Positions 4,845 to 25,480 of a stretch of DNA of 64,000 nt are shown here, in pieces. The stretch comes from Tetraselmis striata (Eukaryota > Chlorophyta > Chlorodendrophyceae > Chlorodendrales > Chlorodendraceae). Positions within the stretch are counted from its first letter, which is position 1. Every line of letters starts with the position of its first letter. Location of the stretch: NCBI GenBank assembly GCA_006384855.1, contig VCJN01003259.1, forward strand, positions 1 to 64,000, in the 5' to 3' direction. The notes below the pieces were generated by a model. The model was not told where the DNA came from, did not search any database, and worked only from the letters and a program-made list of their open reading frames with translations. The position numbers were made by a program, and so were the translations under genes.

Positions 4845-6975
4845 TGACGGTCACCAGCAGTGGCGAGGCCACATCAACCGCTCGCGTGCATGCGACACTC
4901 GCAATTCGCGGGCGTGGGCGTGGGCGTGGGCGTGGGCGTGGGCGCGATGGCGGCCGTGGGCCCGGGCGCAGAGGTGAACGTGAGTGATGGCGTGGGGTGC
5001 CTTTCCGCGAAGCTGCCGGAGCTCTGCGATGGCTCCTTTCGATGAATACTGCATTTAGACCTTCTTACTCGGTGCGGCGCTCCATGCAGCGACAACCGAG
5101 TGCGGCTCAACCATCCACGACATTCACGTGACGGTGCAACCCGTCTCTCGTACCATTCCTTTACTGCGTCCTTCGGGTGTTGCTTTACGGGTTACAACTA
5201 GTTCGCAATGACCTTCATTCGCGCATGTATGTTACGCACGATACGCGCGCTACGAGCGCAATGTAGGTGAGCGCGGGGTGGCCCTTTGCCTACGTGAATC
5301 TTGCCATGCAAACCAATACCATGTCTAACCCGTTCAGCATTTGCAGTGCGACTACCGGCAACTTAACGGACGTTGTTCATTATTTTTCCCGAATGGTCCG
5401 GCCTCATGTTACCGCTTGTGTCAAACGTCGCACTTACGTGCTTGACGAGCCGAGGCCCTCGCCCCTTGGGCAGGTTCCCTTCGGACCCGTCCACATATGA
5501 GGCTTTCGGTTCACACAAGCTAGTACAGCGCACCCTTCACTTCCTCTCCAGCTCCCTCACCGCCTAGACTCTCAATAGCTACACCGTGAAGATGACTTTG
5601 TTCGCCGAGTTCTGCCACGACTCGGAAAATATCAGCCCCCATGGAGGCGAATATTCCTACTACTGATGTTCGGTACGTCGCATGGATCGGTGAGCGGGGC
5701 CACAAATGGGCTAAGTAGTCGTTCCAACCTTTCCTTTCGGCCATCATGAACATGTTCTTTGAGCGGCACTACATCGACCCCCTCGCCTATGACACTCTAC
5801 ACCTCACCGCTTCGCGTCGCGCCCTGATGCACTGGCAACGCCGCCTAGAATAAGTTGAAGTCGCTTTACGGGTCCCGCTACTTGTTGATATCGCATATAT
5901 TCGTTTGTTGAACGTGCCGAGCTAATCGCTCCTCCTCGCACCCCCCCCCCCCCCCCACCCCACGCACCCCCCCGCCCGAGTACCGGTACGACTTCCGGGC
6001 CCTCATGGCCGCCGTCGTCGTCAAGTTCATGTTTTCGCCCAAGGGCTTACTAGCATGTCCTGCCGAGTGCGGGACATGCACTTCGACTCGTACAACATTA
6101 CCATGCAATGTACCACAAGAAGGGTTGCATAAGCAAGCGCGGCCCCTGCGACATTCATGTTCCGCTCCTTCTAGTGGTTGAGCACCGCCGCGTTGCCCGT
6201 CTACTCCGTCACTTCATCGATACCGTCCAGTCAGCCCCCCTCGTCCTTGTTTCCTTGGCCAAGACTAACTTATGGGTTGTCACCCCTTGGCCAAGCACTC
6301 CAAGTTGTGGACGTACTAGTTGTCTTTACCGCCGTTCCTCTCGTCGGTGCCCCCCCCCCCACTGCCTTGCCGGTACCTTTTGGAGCTCGCACTGCCTCTG
6401 GAAGTGTGCTGCCTCTGCCGCGAACTCCATTGGTGTCCCGCTGTCCCACATCCGTCACCAGGGTGGGAAGGGGTGCAACTCCGACATCGTCATGGACTAC
6501 ATCGATCCCATTATTGTCCGCCCTTCACATGTGATTCGTCTTTGGCTACATCCCGTCCCTTCGCCACTTCCAAGGTCAACAAGACTCCGCAGCGGTGGCC
6601 CTCCCGGTACCTCCCACGTTACATGGCGCTACCCATGCCTCGTCAATCGGCCGCTCTCTTCGTTCGCTCTTCCCTGGCCAAGCAACCACTCAATGAACTT
6701 GGTTTGAATGACCTACACTAGTTTATGGGGTTCGTTCCTTTCCTAACCGCGTTCTAGCCGCATGTGCTGGAGCGGTACGGTACTAGTTCACCCGTTGCTG
6801 CGCCCCTTCAGTGCAGCACGAGCAGACATAATAGCAGCCGTAACAGCTGCTGAGCCTGCCCTCTTCTAATTTCGTTGTGTGTGTTCCACACAGCGCCCCG
6901 CTACTTCGGTTTCCCTCGTGTCGGTGTAAAAAGACTGCGCAATTCTTGGCAAATTCAGACTCAACTTGAAAAGCA
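4845..6975 (+). mobile_element. YR element, copy A (5'-truncated, most decayed)
   Basis: Homology to copies B and C begins within the C-terminal end of gag at about 4845, including the GGGCGT hexamer run that encodes the RG-rich tail. It continues through the middle segment, the YR region and the terminal repeats. The B1/A2 junction with its TTTATGGGGTT motif is near 6700-6735, and the terminal B2-like GGCAAATTCAGACTCAACTT ends near 6975. The A1 repeat and most of gag are absent, replaced on the left by unrelated DNA. Numerous frameshifts and an internal C run (5941-5956) show it is inactive. It is the oldest of the three copies by divergence. Confidence 0.85.
4985..6560 (+). pseudogene. Decayed middle segment plus tyrosine recombinase of copy A
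   Basis: Downstream of the TGA at 4985-4987 the old frame still reads into the middle segment. At about 5420-5450 it retains VKRRTYVLDEP in frame with the preceding GNLTDVVHYFSRM block, with a TGT codon near where copy C has a TAA stop. YR fragments follow, including the SAM-like N-terminal region near 5550-5830 and the box II end near 6410-6510 (SAANSIGVPLSHIR ... SDIVMDYIDP, with the nucleophile-type Tyr). Multiple frameshifts and stops abolish function. It is a useful outgroup for deciding which stops in copy C are ancestral. Confidence 0.75.
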
Positions 6976-18597: not shown

Positions 18598-18784
18598 ATG
18601 ATATAAACTCGTTTATGGGGTTTGCTCCTTTCCAAACCGCTTTTCCGGCTACCGTTGCTGCTAAGTGGTACGGGTTACTAGCTCCCTTGTCGTTGCGCCC
18701 TTTTGGGTGCAGCACAAGTAGACATAAAAACAGCGGTAACAGCTGGGCCTGTCATCTTCCAATTTCGCTACATTACACGCAGCG
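18598..18784 (+). repeat. A1 split direct repeat of copy B
   Basis: 187 bp matching A2 of the same copy (21634-21823). It contains TTTATGGGGTTT, the CGAGTAGACATAAAA-type promoter-like stretch, and a terminal GCAGCG hairpin remnant. Confidence 0.85.
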
Positions 18785-18891
18785 ATCAACTGTCTCGTAA
18801 CATGTTGCGAGAAAGGTCATGGGTTGTTTCACGACCACACCCGGCTCACCATCCGTGTTTGGAATTCTCATCCATACGGCCGTGCGTCACC

Positions 18892-19788
18892 ATGCCAGAT
18901 GGAAAAGAACCCGTCGTTAAGCCGACGCTCGAATCGCTACAAGCAGACGTGAAGCCCAAGTCTTCTGTATTGCGCGACATTGCAACAACGTTAGTTTAAT
19001 TGACGGCTCGTGATTGTGTTGTTGATGGAGACGGATAACATTATGGCTCCGGCTCATGGCAGCGCGTCGCGGGACAGCCGACATGCAGCGGGAGAGCCGA
19101 AGAGCGCCCCGACTTGCTAGAGCTAGCCCATAGCGGCCGTGTCGGAGCTAAATCCGCGAGTGACGAGGATGAAGACCTCACGGTGCCAGAGCTACTGCAG
19201 CGAGCAAAGCCTGGTTACGAGGCCGTTCGACCGGTCAGCCGAGTGCCTGGCCTCTCCCCATGAGTACCGACCCAATGAACGGGTACCTCATGCAGAATGG
19301 CCGGCATCCGCCGGCCCATGAGGAGCATCTTTGGATGTCGTGTTTCGGAGCCCACATGGGTGCTCTTTTCGTGGCTCTCAATGAGCTGGTACCTTACGCC
19401 TTTGCTGCTAATCAAGACTTCACCCCCTGCTACCTCGCACGCTCGTCGGAATCGCCCCGAGGCCGTCGACAAGGCGTTTTGCTTTTGTCTAGCCTTCATG
19501 CGGAGGCTTAACGAGATCAATCGTGTGCACGGTGACCAAGGTGTTATGGATGTACTACGGGCCCAGCATTTTCAGCATGCCGCCGACCATCTGGGCTGAG
19601 CGATTTTGGGGGATCTAATGAAGGACTACAAGCGTCGCGTCATCGAGGCGACGGTTATTGCCGGCAGCGCAAAAGCTACCGCAGCGACTTCTCGGGCAGC
19701 GGCGGCGTTCGCATGGCGCGGGCGTGGACGTGGACGTGGACGTGGCGGCGGTCGCGGGCGTGGCCGCGACGAAGGTGAGCACAAGTGA
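18892..19788 (+). pseudogene. Broken gag of YR copy B
   Basis: Starts with ATG at 18892 (MPDGKEPVVKPTLESLQADV) and aligns with gag of copy C. The frame is lost within about 45 codons and further shifts follow near 19080, 19255 and 19440. The Gag core (EEHLWMSCFGAHM, LPYAF/VPATNQDFTP) and the RG-rich tail encoded by CGTGGACGTGG repeats are still recognisable. It ends at TGA 19786-19788, exactly the position of the copy C gag stop. Confidence 0.88.
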
Positions 19789-21642
19789 CGGTGTGGGGCG
19801 CCTTTCGTCGGAGTTGATGGGGCATTTCGAGGCCACCTTTCGGTGCTGACCGCCGCACGGCGAATCCTACTCCTAGCAGCTCAGCGGCGGGATGAGCGCC
19901 ATTTGTCCGGACCGGACCCTCCCACCTTACAGACTTCATTTAGACCTTCCTCGGTGCGGCGCTTCTTACAGCCACAATCGAGTGCAGTTCCACCATCCGC
20001 ACACATGCACATGGCGGCTCAACAATCCGCCTCCCGTACCATTTCAACACTGCGTCCGTCAACTGTTACACTACGTGTTACAATTGGTTCGCAACGACCA
20101 ACTTCCGCGCGTGTACTTTACGCGCGTGACAGGCGCTACGAGGGCGACGGGCGCGCGGGGCGGCCCTCCTACCTGAACCTTGCCCCGCAAAACCGTACTG
20201 ATGCCCTCAGTAACCAGTCCAGCAATTACTGGCCAACCGGGAACCTAACCGCCGCGGCCAAGTACTATGCTAAAATGAACCAGCCCATGTTACTCCGTCG
20301 GCCAAGCGCCGTACTTGCTTAATTGACGAGCCCGAAGCTGTCGCCCCTTGGGCTACTTCACTCCGGTCTCGTATGCATGAGGCGTTCGGCTCGGACGAGT
20401 TATTTTAGGACAGCGGGCCCTCGACCCACTCTTTAGCTCCCTCGCCGCTCAGACGCTCAAGGGCTACGCCGGCAAACTATCTCAGTTCGCGAAGTTCTGC
20501 CACGACTCGTCCGAGAACATCAACCCGCTAGAGGCGACCACTGCTACTATCGTCTGGTACTTGGCTTGGATTGGTGAGCGGGGTCACATCGGGGCTAACC
20601 AAGTCGATACAGCCCTATCTGTCAACAATCAACATGTTCTTTGATCTACGCAACCTCGACTTTATCGCCACGGACAGCCTGCACCTTACCGCTCATCGTG
20701 GCTTGTTGCTAAGGCAACGCCGCATGGAGGCTGCCCCTTTGCGAGTCCCTATGCCCGCTAATGCCGCTTACAACTTCGTCGAGCGCGCAGAGTTGATTGT
20801 GTCCGCTCTCCCTCCCGAAGCGAGAACCAATACGACTTCCGAGCCCTCGTGGCCTCGGTTGTCATCTTCTTATTCTTTGCCAGGAGACTTACTGGCGTGT
20901 CCTACCGACGCCCACAGCATCACCATGCACGTGTACCGCGAGAATGGGCGCGCCGGTCGACGCGGCCCCGGCGACCTACGCGTACTGCTCCTTCCGCTCT
21001 CCTCTCCGAGTACCAATAATACGACTTCCGAGCCCTCGTGGCCTCGGTTGTCAACTTCTTGTTCTTTGCCAGGAGACCTACGCGTATTGCTCCTTCCAGT
21101 GTCGAAACACCCCCGCATCGCGCGTCTCCTGCACCACTTCATCGACCGCGTACAGTCTGCCCCCTAGCCCATGATGCCTTATCGGCCGAGACACACTTTT
21201 GGGCGGTCAGCCCGAGCGATCAATCCAAGTCTTGGACTGCCGCTACAATGTCGGACTGGCTTTACGGCCGTTGGTCTTATTGTCGGTGCCCCCCCCCCCC
21301 CCTTCCGGCACTTCGTGGAGGTCGCACAGCCTTCGCAAAGGTACCGCATCTCCAGATAACGCCATCGGAGCCCCGCTGTCCCACATCAGCTACCAACGTG
21401 GGTGGGCCACCACCTTCGACGTCGTTATGGACTACATCGACCCCAACGTCCTTCCTTATTTGCCTGGCGCGCATGGTTCTTCTTCGGTCACATCGCGCCC
21501 TTCGTCCAACAAGACTCCGCAGCGGTGGCCTGCCCGGTGCCCCCTTCATGACATGCATGGCGCTACCCCTTCTGCGTCAATCTACCGCTATCTCCGTTCG
21601 CTCATCACTGGCAAAACCAGACACAACTTTGAAATGCTCTAA
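19789..21642 (+). pseudogene. Broken middle segment and YR of copy B
   Basis: Immediately after the gag TGA the same frame is largely readable through the middle segment to 20322, with close protein similarity to copy C (QRRDER ... SGPDPPTLQTSFRPSS, YARDRRYEGDGRAGRPSYLNLAPQ). A frameshift near 20300 then breaks the KRRTCLIDEP block. The YR region (about 20330-21560) retains SQFAKFCHDS, LRKGTASPDNAIGAPLSHIS and DVVMDYIDPNVLP. It is split by frameshifts, a local duplication and a poly-C tract. Confidence 0.85.
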
Positions 21643-21943
21643 ACACGTCTATGGGGTTTCCTCCTTTCCAAACCGCTTTTCTGGCTACCGTTGCTGCTAA
21701 GTGGTACGGGTTACTAGTTTCCTTGTCGTTGCGCCCTTTTGGGTGCAGCACGAGTAGACATGAAAGCAGCGGTAACAGCTGCGCATGCCATCTTCCAATT
21801 TATTCGCCGCGTTACACGCAGCGCCCCCGCCCTCACTCCGTTTTCCCACGACGTTCTCAACCTTCCGCCTGCCAATTTTGGCTTTTGACCGTGTAAACCT
21901 GTCTGCTTGACCTTCTTGGCATAACCAGACTCAACTTTGAAAT
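21634..21943 (+). repeat. A2 and B2 repeats of copy B
   Basis: A2 (21634-21823) repeats A1. B2 (21918-21943) repeats the 26-bp B1 at 21610-21635. The junction of B1 with A2 overlaps by the dinucleotide AT. Confidence 0.85.
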
Positions 21944-22027: not shown

Positions 22028-22214
22028 ATGATCTAAACTAGTTTATGGGGTTTCCATCCTTGACCTAACCGCTTTTCAGCTACAAGTGCTGCGCAATGGT
22101 ACGGGAACTAGTAACTGTTGTTGCGCCCTTGTTGGGTGCAGCACGAGTAGACATAAAAGCAGCCATAACAGCTGAGCCTGCCATCTTCCAGTTTTCGCTG
22201 CGTTCCACGCAGCG
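22028..22214 (+). repeat. A1 split direct repeat of copy C
   Basis: 187 bp, almost identical to A2 at 24923-25109. It ends in a perfect 7-bp stem with a 5-base loop (CGCTGCG TTCCA CGCAGCG). Placed upstream of gag it is the likely promoter and leader; CATAAAA at about 22151 is a possible TATA-like element. Confidence 0.92.
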
Positions 22215-22327
22215 ATGTAAAAACTGTCTCGTAACCCGTTGCGAGCAAGGTCACCCCAGGTTGTTCAAGACCACACCCGGCTCGCCATCCGAGTGTGATA
22301 TTCTCGTCCGTACGTCCGTGCGTTACT

Positions 22328-23182
22328 ATGTCAGATGGAGAAGAACCCGTCGTTGAGCCGACGCTCAAGTCGTTGCAAGCAGATGTGCGTGCATTGGCTA
22401 CAGCTGTGGCACAATTGACGGCTCGAGATCGCGTTGTTGATGGAGAAGGGGCACATGGCTCCGACTCAGGGCAGCGCTTCGCGAGACAGCCGACAGGCAG
22501 CGGGGGAGCCGCAGAGCGCCCCGACTTGCTAGAGCTAGCCCAGAGCGGCCGTGTCGGAGCAAAATCCGTGAGTGCCGAGGATGATTACCTCGCGGTGCCA
22601 GAGCTACTGCAGAGAGCAGAGTCTGGTTACGAGGCCGTTCGACCGGTCAGCCGAGTGCCTGGACTTTTCCCTTTGAGCACCGACCTAACGAACGAGTACC
22701 TCAGGCAGGATGACCGGCGTCTGCCGGCCCAGGAGGAGTACTTGTGGATGTCGTGTTTCGGGGCCCACATGGCCGCCCTTTTCGTGGCGCTCGACGAGCT
22801 GCTACCTTACGTCCCCGCCACTAACCAGGACTTCACCCCCTACCTCGCGAGAGCTCGAAATCACGCCGAGGCCATCGACAAGGCGTTTCGTTTTCGTCTA
22901 GCCTTCCTGCGGAGGCTGAATGAGATCAAGCGTGTGCACGGTGACCAAGGTGTTCTGGATGTGCTGCGGGCTCAACATTTTCAGCCCGCTTCGGAGCATT
23001 TGGGTTCTGCGATTGTTGGGGACCTCATGAGGGACTACGAGCGTCGTGTCTTCGAGGCGACCGTTGCCAGCAGCGCCAAGGCGACCGCTACTTCTCGAGT
23101 AGCGGCTGCAGCTGCAGGTCGCGGGCGTGGGCGAGGACGTGGCGGCGGACGTGGACGCGGCCGCGAAGGTGAGCACGAGTGA
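22328..23182 (+). CDS. Gag-like structural protein of YR copy C
   Basis: 284 codons from ATG 22328 to TGA 23180-23182. The N-terminus (about residues 10-45, LKSLQADVRALATAVAQL) has hydrophobic spacing suggestive of a coiled coil. The middle (residues about 90-220) is helix-rich with EEYLWMSCFGAHMAALFVALDEL-type and FRLAFLRRLNEIKRVHG blocks (given here only in part). The C-terminus is an RG-rich tail (GRGRGRGRGGGRGRGR) suited to nucleic-acid binding. No CCHC knuckle is present. It is called Gag by position and composition, by analogy with DIRS ORF1; I recognise no named family. The stop TGA is followed in the same frame by conserved coding-like sequence. Confidence 0.75.
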   Translation: MSDGEEPVVEPTLKSLQADVRALATAVAQLTARDRVVDGEGAHGSDSGQRFARQPTGSGGAAERPDLLELAQSGRVGAKSVSAEDDYLAVPELLQRAESGYEAVRPVSRVPGLFPLSTDLTNEYLRQDDRRLPAQEEYLWMSCFGAHMAALFVALDELLPYVPATNQDFTPYLARARNHAEAIDKAFRFRLAFLRRLNEIKRVHGDQGVLDVLRAQHFQPASEHLGSAIVGDLMRDYERRVFEATVASSAKATATSRVAAAAAGRGRGRGRGGGRGRGREGEHE

Positions 23183-24844
23183 CGGCGTGGGGCGCCGCTC
23201 GTCGGAGCTGCAGGCGCCTTGCGAGGCCACCTTTCGGTGACCGCCGCAAGACGCACCCTTGCAGCTCAACGGCGGGATGAGCGCCCTGTGTCAGGACCTG
23301 ACCCCCCCACCTTACAGACTTCATTTAGACCTTCCTCGGTGCGGCGCTTCTTACAGCTACAGCCGAGTGCGGCTCAACCATCCGCACACCTGCACACGGC
23401 GGCTCAACCATCCGCCTTTCTTAGAACCCCATCTCTGCGTTCGACGGTTGTTACATTACGTGTTACAACCGGTTCGCAACGACCAAGTTTCGCGCGTGTA
23501 CGTTACGCACGGGACAGGCGCTACGAGCGCGAAGGGCGCGCGGGGCGGCCCTCCTACCTGAACCTAGCCCCGCAAACCCGTACTGGAGCTACTGCAAACC
23601 CGTCCAGCAACTACCGGCCAACCGCCGGGAACCTAACCGCTGCTGCCGAGTACTTTGCGAACAGTAGCCGTACCGGTGGAACTCTGTAAGTAAAACGACG
23701 CACTTACGTAATCGACGAGCCCGCAGCTATCGCTCCATGGGCTGCGTCACTGCGATCTCGGCTGCAGGACGCGTTCGGCTCAGACGAGCTGGGCCAGCGG
23801 ACGTTGGACCTGCTCTCCAGCTCCCTCAGCGCGCAGACCCTCAAGAGCTACGCCGGCAGACTGTCTCAGTTCGCTGAGTTCTGCCACGACTCCGAGAACA
23901 TCAGCCCGTTGGAAGCAACTACTGCTACTGTTGTTCGGTACGTTGCCTGGATCGGGGAGCGAGGGCACATCGCAGCTAAGTCGCTGCAGCCCTACCTGTC
24001 TGCCATCAACACCTTCTTCGAGCTGCACAACCTCGTCCCGATCGCCAAGGACAGCCTACACCTCACTTCGGCAAGGCGTGGGTTAATGTTGCGGCAGCGC
24101 CGACTGGACGCTGCCCCTCTGCGTGTCCCTCTGCCCGCGGATGTCGCTTACCGCTTCGTCTCAAAGGCCGAGCTAATTGTGTCTGCTCCTTACCCAGAGT
24201 CCCACCTCGACTACCGAGCCCTCTTGGCCTCGGTCGTCAACTTCCTGTTCTTTGCCAGGGGCCTTACTGGCGTCTCCTGTCGAGCGCAAGATGTGCATGT
24301 CGACACCTACAACATCACCTTGCAGATCTACCGCGAGAAGGGTCGAGCTGGCCGTCGGGGACCCGACGACCTGCGCGTACTTCTCCTTCCAGTGTCCGAG
24401 CACCCTCGAGTGGCACGACTCTTGCGCTACTTCATCAGCAACGTCCAGTCTGTCCCCCTGGTTACTGTTGGCTTGGCTGCCTCCAACTTCTGGGCTGTCA
24501 ATGTGGCTGAGCAGTCAAAACCTTGGACTGCGGCTACGATGTCAGACTGGTTGTCTACAGCAGTCAACCTAGTCAACGCTGCCCCTCCTGCTGGCACTTC
24601 CTGGACTTCACACAGTCTACGCAAGGGCGCAGCCTCTGCAGCGAACGCCATCGGAGCACCACTGTCCCACATCCGCTACCAAGGCGGTTGGGCCACTAAC
24701 TCCGATGTCGTTCTGGACTACATCGACCCCAACGTTCTTCCTTCTCCTGGCGCGTGGTTCTTCTTTGGACACATCGCCCCCCTCCGCCACTTCCAAGTCC
24801 AACAGGACTCCGCAGCGGTGGCCTTCCCAGTGCCTCCCTCATGA
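23183..24844 (+). CDS. Middle segment plus tyrosine recombinase, in frame with gag
   Basis: The gag frame continues after TGA 23180-23182 for 168 codons to TAA 23687-23689, then from 23690 to TGA 24842-24844. The first part is Arg/Ser/Pro-rich (QRRDERPVSGPDPP, RRYEREGRAGRPSY). The second is a YR with an N-terminal SAM-like domain (LSAQTLKSYAGRLSQFAEFC). Its catalytic domain shows a probable box I Arg in FFARGLTGVS, the HxxR signature in HSLRKGAASAAN, GGW, and the presumed nucleophile in VVLDYIDP. No in-frame ATG occurs between the gag stop and 24086, inside the YR, so independent initiation looks impossible. Expression needs readthrough, splicing or a non-ATG start. Apart from the TAA the frame is intact. 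Confidence 0.82.
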
Positions 24845-24898
24845 CTTGGCGCTACCCCTTCTCCGTCAATCCACCGCTCTCTACGTTCGCTCAAGACT

Positions 24899-25229
24899 GG
24901 CAAAACCAGACTCAACTTTGAAATGATCTAAACTAGTTTATGGGGTTTCCATCCTTGACCTAACCGCTTTTCAGCTACAAGTGCTGCGCAATGGTACGGG
25001 AACTAGTAACTGTTGTTGCGCCCTTGTTGGGTGCAGCACGAGTAGACATAAAAACAGCCAGAACAGCTGAGCCTGCCATCTTCCAGTTTTCGCTGCGTTC
25101 CACGCAGCGCCCCCCCTGACTCCGTTTTCCCTCCACGCTTTTCGCTAAACCTTCCTGCCAATTTCGGCTCTTGACCGTGTAAAACAGCCTGCGCGACCTT
25201 TTTGGCAAAACCAGACTCAACTTTGAAAT
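24899..25229 (+). repeat. B1-A2-B2 terminal repeats of copy C
   Basis: B1 (24899-24924) and B2 (25204-25229) are identical 26-mers starting GGCAAAACCAGACTC and ending TTGAAAT. A2 (24923-25109) repeats A1. The remaining 25110-25203 is unique to the right end and includes a short C run. Confidence 0.92.
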
Positions 25230-25424: not shown

Positions 25425-25480
25425 ACATGAGCTAGCAGCAGAAGGAGATATCGGAAATCACCAAAATACCGTGACGCGGG
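25425..25480. repeat. Short dispersed repeat, member 1
   Basis: ATGAGCTAGCAGCAGAAGG followed by GATATCGGAAATCACC resembles 26606-26660 and 52716-52765. All three sit just after a TATATA-rich stretch, and the second and third continue with an AGAAAAGG-CAAT block. Confidence 0.7.

Follow-up and report, generated by a model that had tools for sequence, protein, structure and literature searches.

Most non-autonomous retroelements retain either their ends alone or gag alone. Among elements with a tyrosine recombinase (YR), the PAT, Toc and Kangaroo elements of the DIRS group and Ngaro are described in PMC4157794 with split direct repeats in the order A1-coding-B1-A2-B2, a Gag-like ORF, a YR and an internal junction, and they carry a reverse transcriptase (RT) with RNase H, to which PAT adds a methyltransferase. 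Here we describe an element that has the same arrangement and neither of these enzymes. It lies complete at positions 22029-25228 of the window, the whole 64,000-nt stretch of Tetraselmis striata DNA that was analysed, and is read in the order A1, Gag-like ORF, YR, B1, A2, B2. We think it likely that it represents a long-lived lineage of non-autonomous, protein-coding split-direct-repeat YR retroelements, for which RT would be supplied in trans.

Repeats and reading frames of the element

The features of the complete element and of two older copies in the window are listed in Table 1. The first-pass annotation had described near-identical A repeats of 187 bp, identical 26-mers as B1 and B2 and the order A1-coding-B1-A2-B2, and all three stand: the A repeats are 99% identical over 187 nt with a start-to-start distance of 2895, and the B copies form an identical stretch of 27 nt (24898-24924 and 25203-25229). 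The ends of the element, TGATCTAA (from 22029) and CTTTGAAA (to 25228), were set by comparing 23 insertions in which both ends are present. A TATA-like ACATAAAA inside A1 at 22151 may act as a promoter; among the 25 elements having both repeats, the octamer is found in 24 A1 and 23 A2.

Table 1. Window coordinates of the complete element and its older relatives
Feature	Position	Strand	Basis or remark
A1, left split direct repeat	22029..22214	+	repeat comparison, end comparison
ORF1, Gag-like, 284 aa, RG-rich tail, TGA then C	22328..23182	+	
ORF2 N-terminal part, 168 aa, gag frame, immediately 3′ of gag stop	23183..23686	+	
Premature TAA in the window copy's ORF2	23687..23689	+	
YR part of ORF2, 384 aa	23690..24844	+	Pfam, Cre match, motifs
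B1	24898..24923	+	internal B1-A2 junction at 24923/24924
A2, internal copy of left repeat	24924..25109	+	
Short tail, between A2 and B2	25110..25202	+	
B2, right end of the element	25203..25228	+	
Older damaged copy, same order, no RT	18599..21943	+	identity by segment 73-96%; gag contains stops
Oldest damaged copy: gag RG end, ORF2 N-terminal part, YR, B1, A2, tail, B2-like end	4906..6967	+	identity by segment 66-85%; translation contains stops; gag start not found

Foreign sequence upstream of window position 4906 resembles, by eye, the sequence that cuts another gag locus (L024) after 2555. In both places GGAATGTGGCC and long G/C runs are seen, in opposite orientation, and this is probably another mobile element.

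The YR part of ORF2 matches Phage_int_SAM_1 in Pfam at an E value of 6e-8, which passes the cut-off, together with Phage_integrase at 8e-4, which is below it, and Cre at 0.0017. The HSLRK and DYI motifs, which we take to be catalytic, are in place. Nearly all of the YR protein matches listed (119 of 120, out of 493) carry jgi/Tetstr1 names, and the remaining listed match, 90% identical, lies on a 5779-base contig from a JGI metagenome; no YR relatives were found in viral contigs and phage records. The Gag-like ORF matches no Pfam family within an E-value limit of 1, and its position, RG tail and selection suggest a Gag identity. For the N-terminal part of ORF2 there was no Pfam match either. 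Structure models of the Gag-like ORF (pLDDT 46) and of the YR (pLDDT 34) were too poor for a fold search.

The description of the coding part as a Gag-like ORF plus a YR was correct as to the motifs, while the extent of the YR frame has to be revised, because this frame starts at the gag stop and reaches 553 codons, open in many relatives among the 107 YR matches listed. ORF1 consists of 284 codons ending in TGA in 28 of 30 copies, with C as the next base in 26 and T in two, and the ORF2 frame begins directly 3′ of the gag UGA, in the same frame, in 28 of 30 copies. All 499 codons of ORF2 that were seen are open in 18 of the 30, the first ATG being at codon 71 or 301. This in-frame position directly after the gag UGA, and the broken ORF2 of the window copy, are additions to the first-pass annotation. 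The YR is probably made as a Gag-YR product by UGA readthrough from gag, which is the simplest route of expression. Splicing of gag to YR is the rival route: gene models join the two in this way, and readthrough gets little support from the N-terminal part of ORF2, where selection is weak.

Copies in the host genome and the absence of reverse transcriptase from those sampled

A search of the host genome, and of its family members for RT and RNase H between gag and YR, had been named as the check on these proposals. In the host assembly (224 Mb, 2903 contigs), the exact 37-nt B1/A2 junction is found at 625 places and at none in the reversed control, which excludes chance, the exact tail piece at 491 places and the gag start at 339. 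Tandem gag-YR arrays are seen at C2249:52789-62503 and C348:1462-7636, with a spacing of 2916-2921 nt that equals one A1-B1 unit.

With an E-value limit of 1, Pfam detected no RT, RNase H or methyltransferase in either gag or ORF2. Among the 30 loci chosen for the closest protein match to the window gag, gag is followed by the N-terminal part of ORF2 and the YR in 29 (two with a damaged YR), and the thirtieth (L024) is interrupted by the foreign sequence mentioned above. The gap between gag and YR measures 488-514 nt in all 34 gag matches that have a YR match within 8 kb, drawn from at least 126 gag matches and at least 107 YR matches, and this leaves no room for an RT. Furthermore, we measured the distance from gag to the junction for the 57 gag starts, out of 339, that lie on contigs up to C463; 12 of these have no listed junction within 30 kb, and for the 45 that do, the distance is 2384-2676 nt in 43, with 7390 nt (C385) and 11226 nt (C29:84797) in the others.

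The wide gap on C385 was considered as an RT-bearing member and rejected: in the 2.5 kb seen, gag is followed by 849 nt of YR and then a break, so that the extra DNA sits inside the YR. Collectively, no RT-bearing member of the family was found in the sampled copies (30 gag loci, 34 gaps and 45 distances, the latter without the content of the C29 interval), and RT elsewhere in the family with differing breakpoints did not appear. As these are samples out of hundreds of copies, a rare RT-bearing member is possible. The proposal of an RT-less lineage that keeps Gag and YR while borrowing RT is supported by the counts of loci, gaps and distances alike.

We also compared substitutions among 28 gag and 17 ORF2 sequences from the 30 loci, after dropping two with an early gag stop, the ORF2s that are not open and one locus with a deletion (L035). 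Substitutions present in two or more copies were regarded as shared. In the YR, 4 shared substitutions are non-synonymous and 39 synonymous (expected 2.38:1), and the YR has thus been under strong purifying selection during the spread of the family. Gag has been under purifying selection too (11 non-synonymous and 42 synonymous, expected 2.45:1), with the caveat that the loci were picked by their protein match to gag, which favours synonymous differences there; the YR played no part in this choice, and its figure is therefore safer. The N-terminal part of ORF2 has 13 shared substitutions of each kind (expected 2.21:1, p 0.03). For substitutions found in a single copy, the non-synonymous to synonymous counts are 44/36 in the YR, 41/50 in gag and 18/9 in the N-terminal part of ORF2, the last showing no sign of selection.

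These data bear on the idea of a family of internal deletions, in which an RT-bearing master copy persists unsampled and Gag and YR have been kept by recent amplification only. Such a master could have escaped samples that cover 57 of the 339 gag starts and the top-ranked part of the match lists in an assembly of 2903 contigs, the interval at C29:84797 lying outside what was read. We nevertheless regard this explanation as unlikely, since the layout is equal in window copies whose segments are 66-85% and 73-96% identical, the shared substitutions in the YR are almost all synonymous, and the sampled copies show no RT-bearing member. The three window copies, which differ in age, have a common order without RT, and the loss of RT was therefore no recent one-off; the argument that the first-pass annotation had drawn from them holds.

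Repeat pairing, insertion sites and a proposed route of transposition

A1 and A2 match within elements far beyond chance. We counted 31 differences over 25 pairs, while random re-pairing gave a mean of 85 and a minimum of 51 in 100,000 permutations (25 of 26 pairs, L019 being dropped as the surroundings of its locus are common with L015). Four A sites are variable across the family yet identical within every pair, and one element (L026) has five uncommon variants in both of its A repeats. The split-repeat model of reverse transcription calls for matching A repeats in new insertions, and such a match is expected if one repeat is copied from the other in that process. On the whole, the two A repeats appear to have matched when each insertion arose, as the repeats of LTR elements do. 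The stricter version, that A1 equals A2 at birth in every element, was rejected: only 8 of the 25 pairs are free of substitutions, and each kind of difference at A positions 117, 137, 138 and 184 recurs in two elements, so that a few differences may be inherited rather than all being acquired after insertion.

Solo A-tail units make up 2 of the first 75 of the 491 tail places; these units, with no coding part upstream, are near 291064 on C175 and near 70664 on C374. Forty listed junctions are without an exact tail, and of the five that were read, four consist of A2 and a tail with substitutions and one stops after 41 nt of A.

The insertion sites were compared for 23 of 26 elements, those lacking B2 (L015, L019 and L021) being left out. 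At position -2 of the left flank, 16 insertions have T, 5 have A and 2 have C; at position -1, 14 have A, 7 have T and 2 have C. On the right flank, the base next to the GAA of the right end is always A (23 of 23), and the one after it is T (12) or C (11). No consistent target duplication was found across the 23 insertions. One of them (L030) has empty paralogues at window 25427-25466 and in L027, relative to which its flanks overlap by 2-3 bases, and a target duplication of 2-3 bases is possible at this site.

Another account of the family is that of a DNA element intermediate between DIRS and Crypton: circles cut out or copied by its YR would re-integrate without a reverse-transcription step, and the Gag-like protein would have another purpose. 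The element is indeed without RT, its YR is present and conserved, and entry of circles at the internal junction could produce the one-unit spacing of the tandem copies. However, a traffic of unit circles does not predict an A1/A2 match beyond chance within elements, and solos, the expected leftovers of excision, are found at only 2 of 75 tails. Cryptons are moreover low in copy number, according to PMC3212892 and PMC4157794, as against 625 junctions here. We therefore hold this explanation to be improbable, and the matching repeats and rare solos likewise speak against the suggestion in the first-pass annotation of a new class between DIRS and Crypton with no need of RT. An assembly artefact or passive segmental duplication without transposition, to which some tandem arrays, a fragmented assembly and the common flanks of L015 and L019 might point, can be set aside as very improbable, given 23 insertions with the same two ends and, on inspection, differing flanks, one of them with empty paralogous sites.

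On the sequence evidence, the best reading is a DIRS-like way of working with a borrowed RT. We infer an RNA intermediate. Its transcription would begin behind the TATA-like box, close to where A1 ends on its 3′ side. Gag would package this RNA, with the YR presumably supplied by readthrough, the RT of a donor element would make cDNA and rebuild both ends from the internal B1-A2 junction, and a closed circle would then enter new sites through the element's own YR. DNA recombination could also make the tandem copies, a point that counts against this reading.

A possible donor was sought among the RT-bearing elements of the genome. A search with RVT_1, for which the best 150 of 3001 candidates were scored, was uninformative on DIRS RTs, and a search with the Dam methyltransferase was used instead, from which five loci were read (L069, L070, L091, L092 and L093). 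The first of these, on C2571 (L069:489-6346), encodes a CCHC Gag, RVT_1 (7e-15), RNase H and Dam, with an overlapping YR-type frame (PHROG integrase, 1.4e-5). It has a 207-nt A and a 68-nt B repeat in the same split order as the RT-less element, with a TATA-like box within A. In a search with its pol frame, 64 scored candidates yielded 75 matches; 23 of these are full-length, stop-free and 97-100% identical, and L069 represents a young RT-bearing DIRS family. L070 (L070:2-5545) is a second element bearing RT and Dam, with a long frame of 1331 aa and again an overlapping YR-type frame. By eye, L091 and L093 resemble LTR-type elements; their weak partial Dam (PF05869) matches look spurious. Relatives of the L069 YR are 40-47% identical in metagenomes, and a single one, at 31%, comes from Chlamydomonas incerta.

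In direct comparison, the YRs of L069 and L070 and the Gag of L069 have no recognisable relation to those of the RT-less family, and YR profile comparison with L069 and L070 gave probabilities of 12% and 0.4%, which is nothing firm. The borrowed-RT reading thus draws no support from these proteins for a recognition or origin in common, and L069 and L070 are candidate helpers rather than proven parents. The RT-RNaseH-methyltransferase DIRS family of the L069 type is the simplest candidate for the RT donor. At two loci (L015/L071 on C1548 and L019/L074 on C2741) an RT-less element with a truncated right end lies, by eye, inside an L069-type copy in the opposite orientation, with TTTAGGG-like telomeric repeats adjoining.

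We raise one further proposal tentatively: that the family may be a lasting class of YR elements which has given up RT for good, a Gag-YR element dependent on UGA readthrough that would be an obligate parasite of the RT of other elements, has outcopied them, and stands between DIRS and Crypton. Whichever the status of the class, a capsid-like protein and an integration enzyme have been retained and the copying enzyme is gone, in a family whose YRs differ by up to about a third between copies. This suggests that RT can be supplied in trans to elements whose Gag and YR work in cis. Such a lineage would be a natural system in which to test DIRS-type replication, a process still largely deduced, and it opens a route linking DIRS-like to Crypton-like lifestyles.

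Relation to known elements

The open-access PMC literature yielded no paper on an RT-less Gag-YR element with split repeats or on DIRS in Tetraselmis; a description in print elsewhere is possible. Of the traits of the DIRS order, the element has the YR and the A1-B1-A2-B2 repeats and lacks RT-RNaseH. Since RT was tested for and not found, we do not file it as DIRS, PAT or Ngaro. Its ORFs gave no Pfam match, with E limited to 1, to a Dam-like methyltransferase, a trait of PAT. The element is without a CCHC knuckle, as are Toc and Kangaroo according to PMC4157794.

VIPER and SIRE also have split direct repeats, and SIRE, being A2-B2, is like the solo units of the RT-less family; SIRE is non-coding and VIPER has RT-RNaseH (PMC6681497), whereas the element described here encodes a Gag-like protein and a YR. 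Cryptons have, as here, a YR without RT, but PMC3212892 presents them as low-copy elements without long direct repeats, in contrast to the 187-nt A and 27-nt B of the RT-less element. With its long direct repeats, the element is therefore not a Crypton, and with the same E-value limit of 1, Pfam matched its ORFs to neither DUF3504 nor GCR1_C, which occur in some Crypton groups.

Within the same genome, the L069 family has in common with the RT-less element the split-repeat order, a Gag or Gag-like protein, a YR-type frame and the TATA-like box in A, and differs in its RT-RNaseH-Dam and in the CCHC of its Gag, none of which the RT-less element has. TR-GAG, LARD and other non-autonomous LTR elements likewise keep a part and borrow the rest, TR-GAG keeping Gag. 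Unlike the RT-less element, however, elements of the TR-GAG and LARD type do not keep the integration enzyme.
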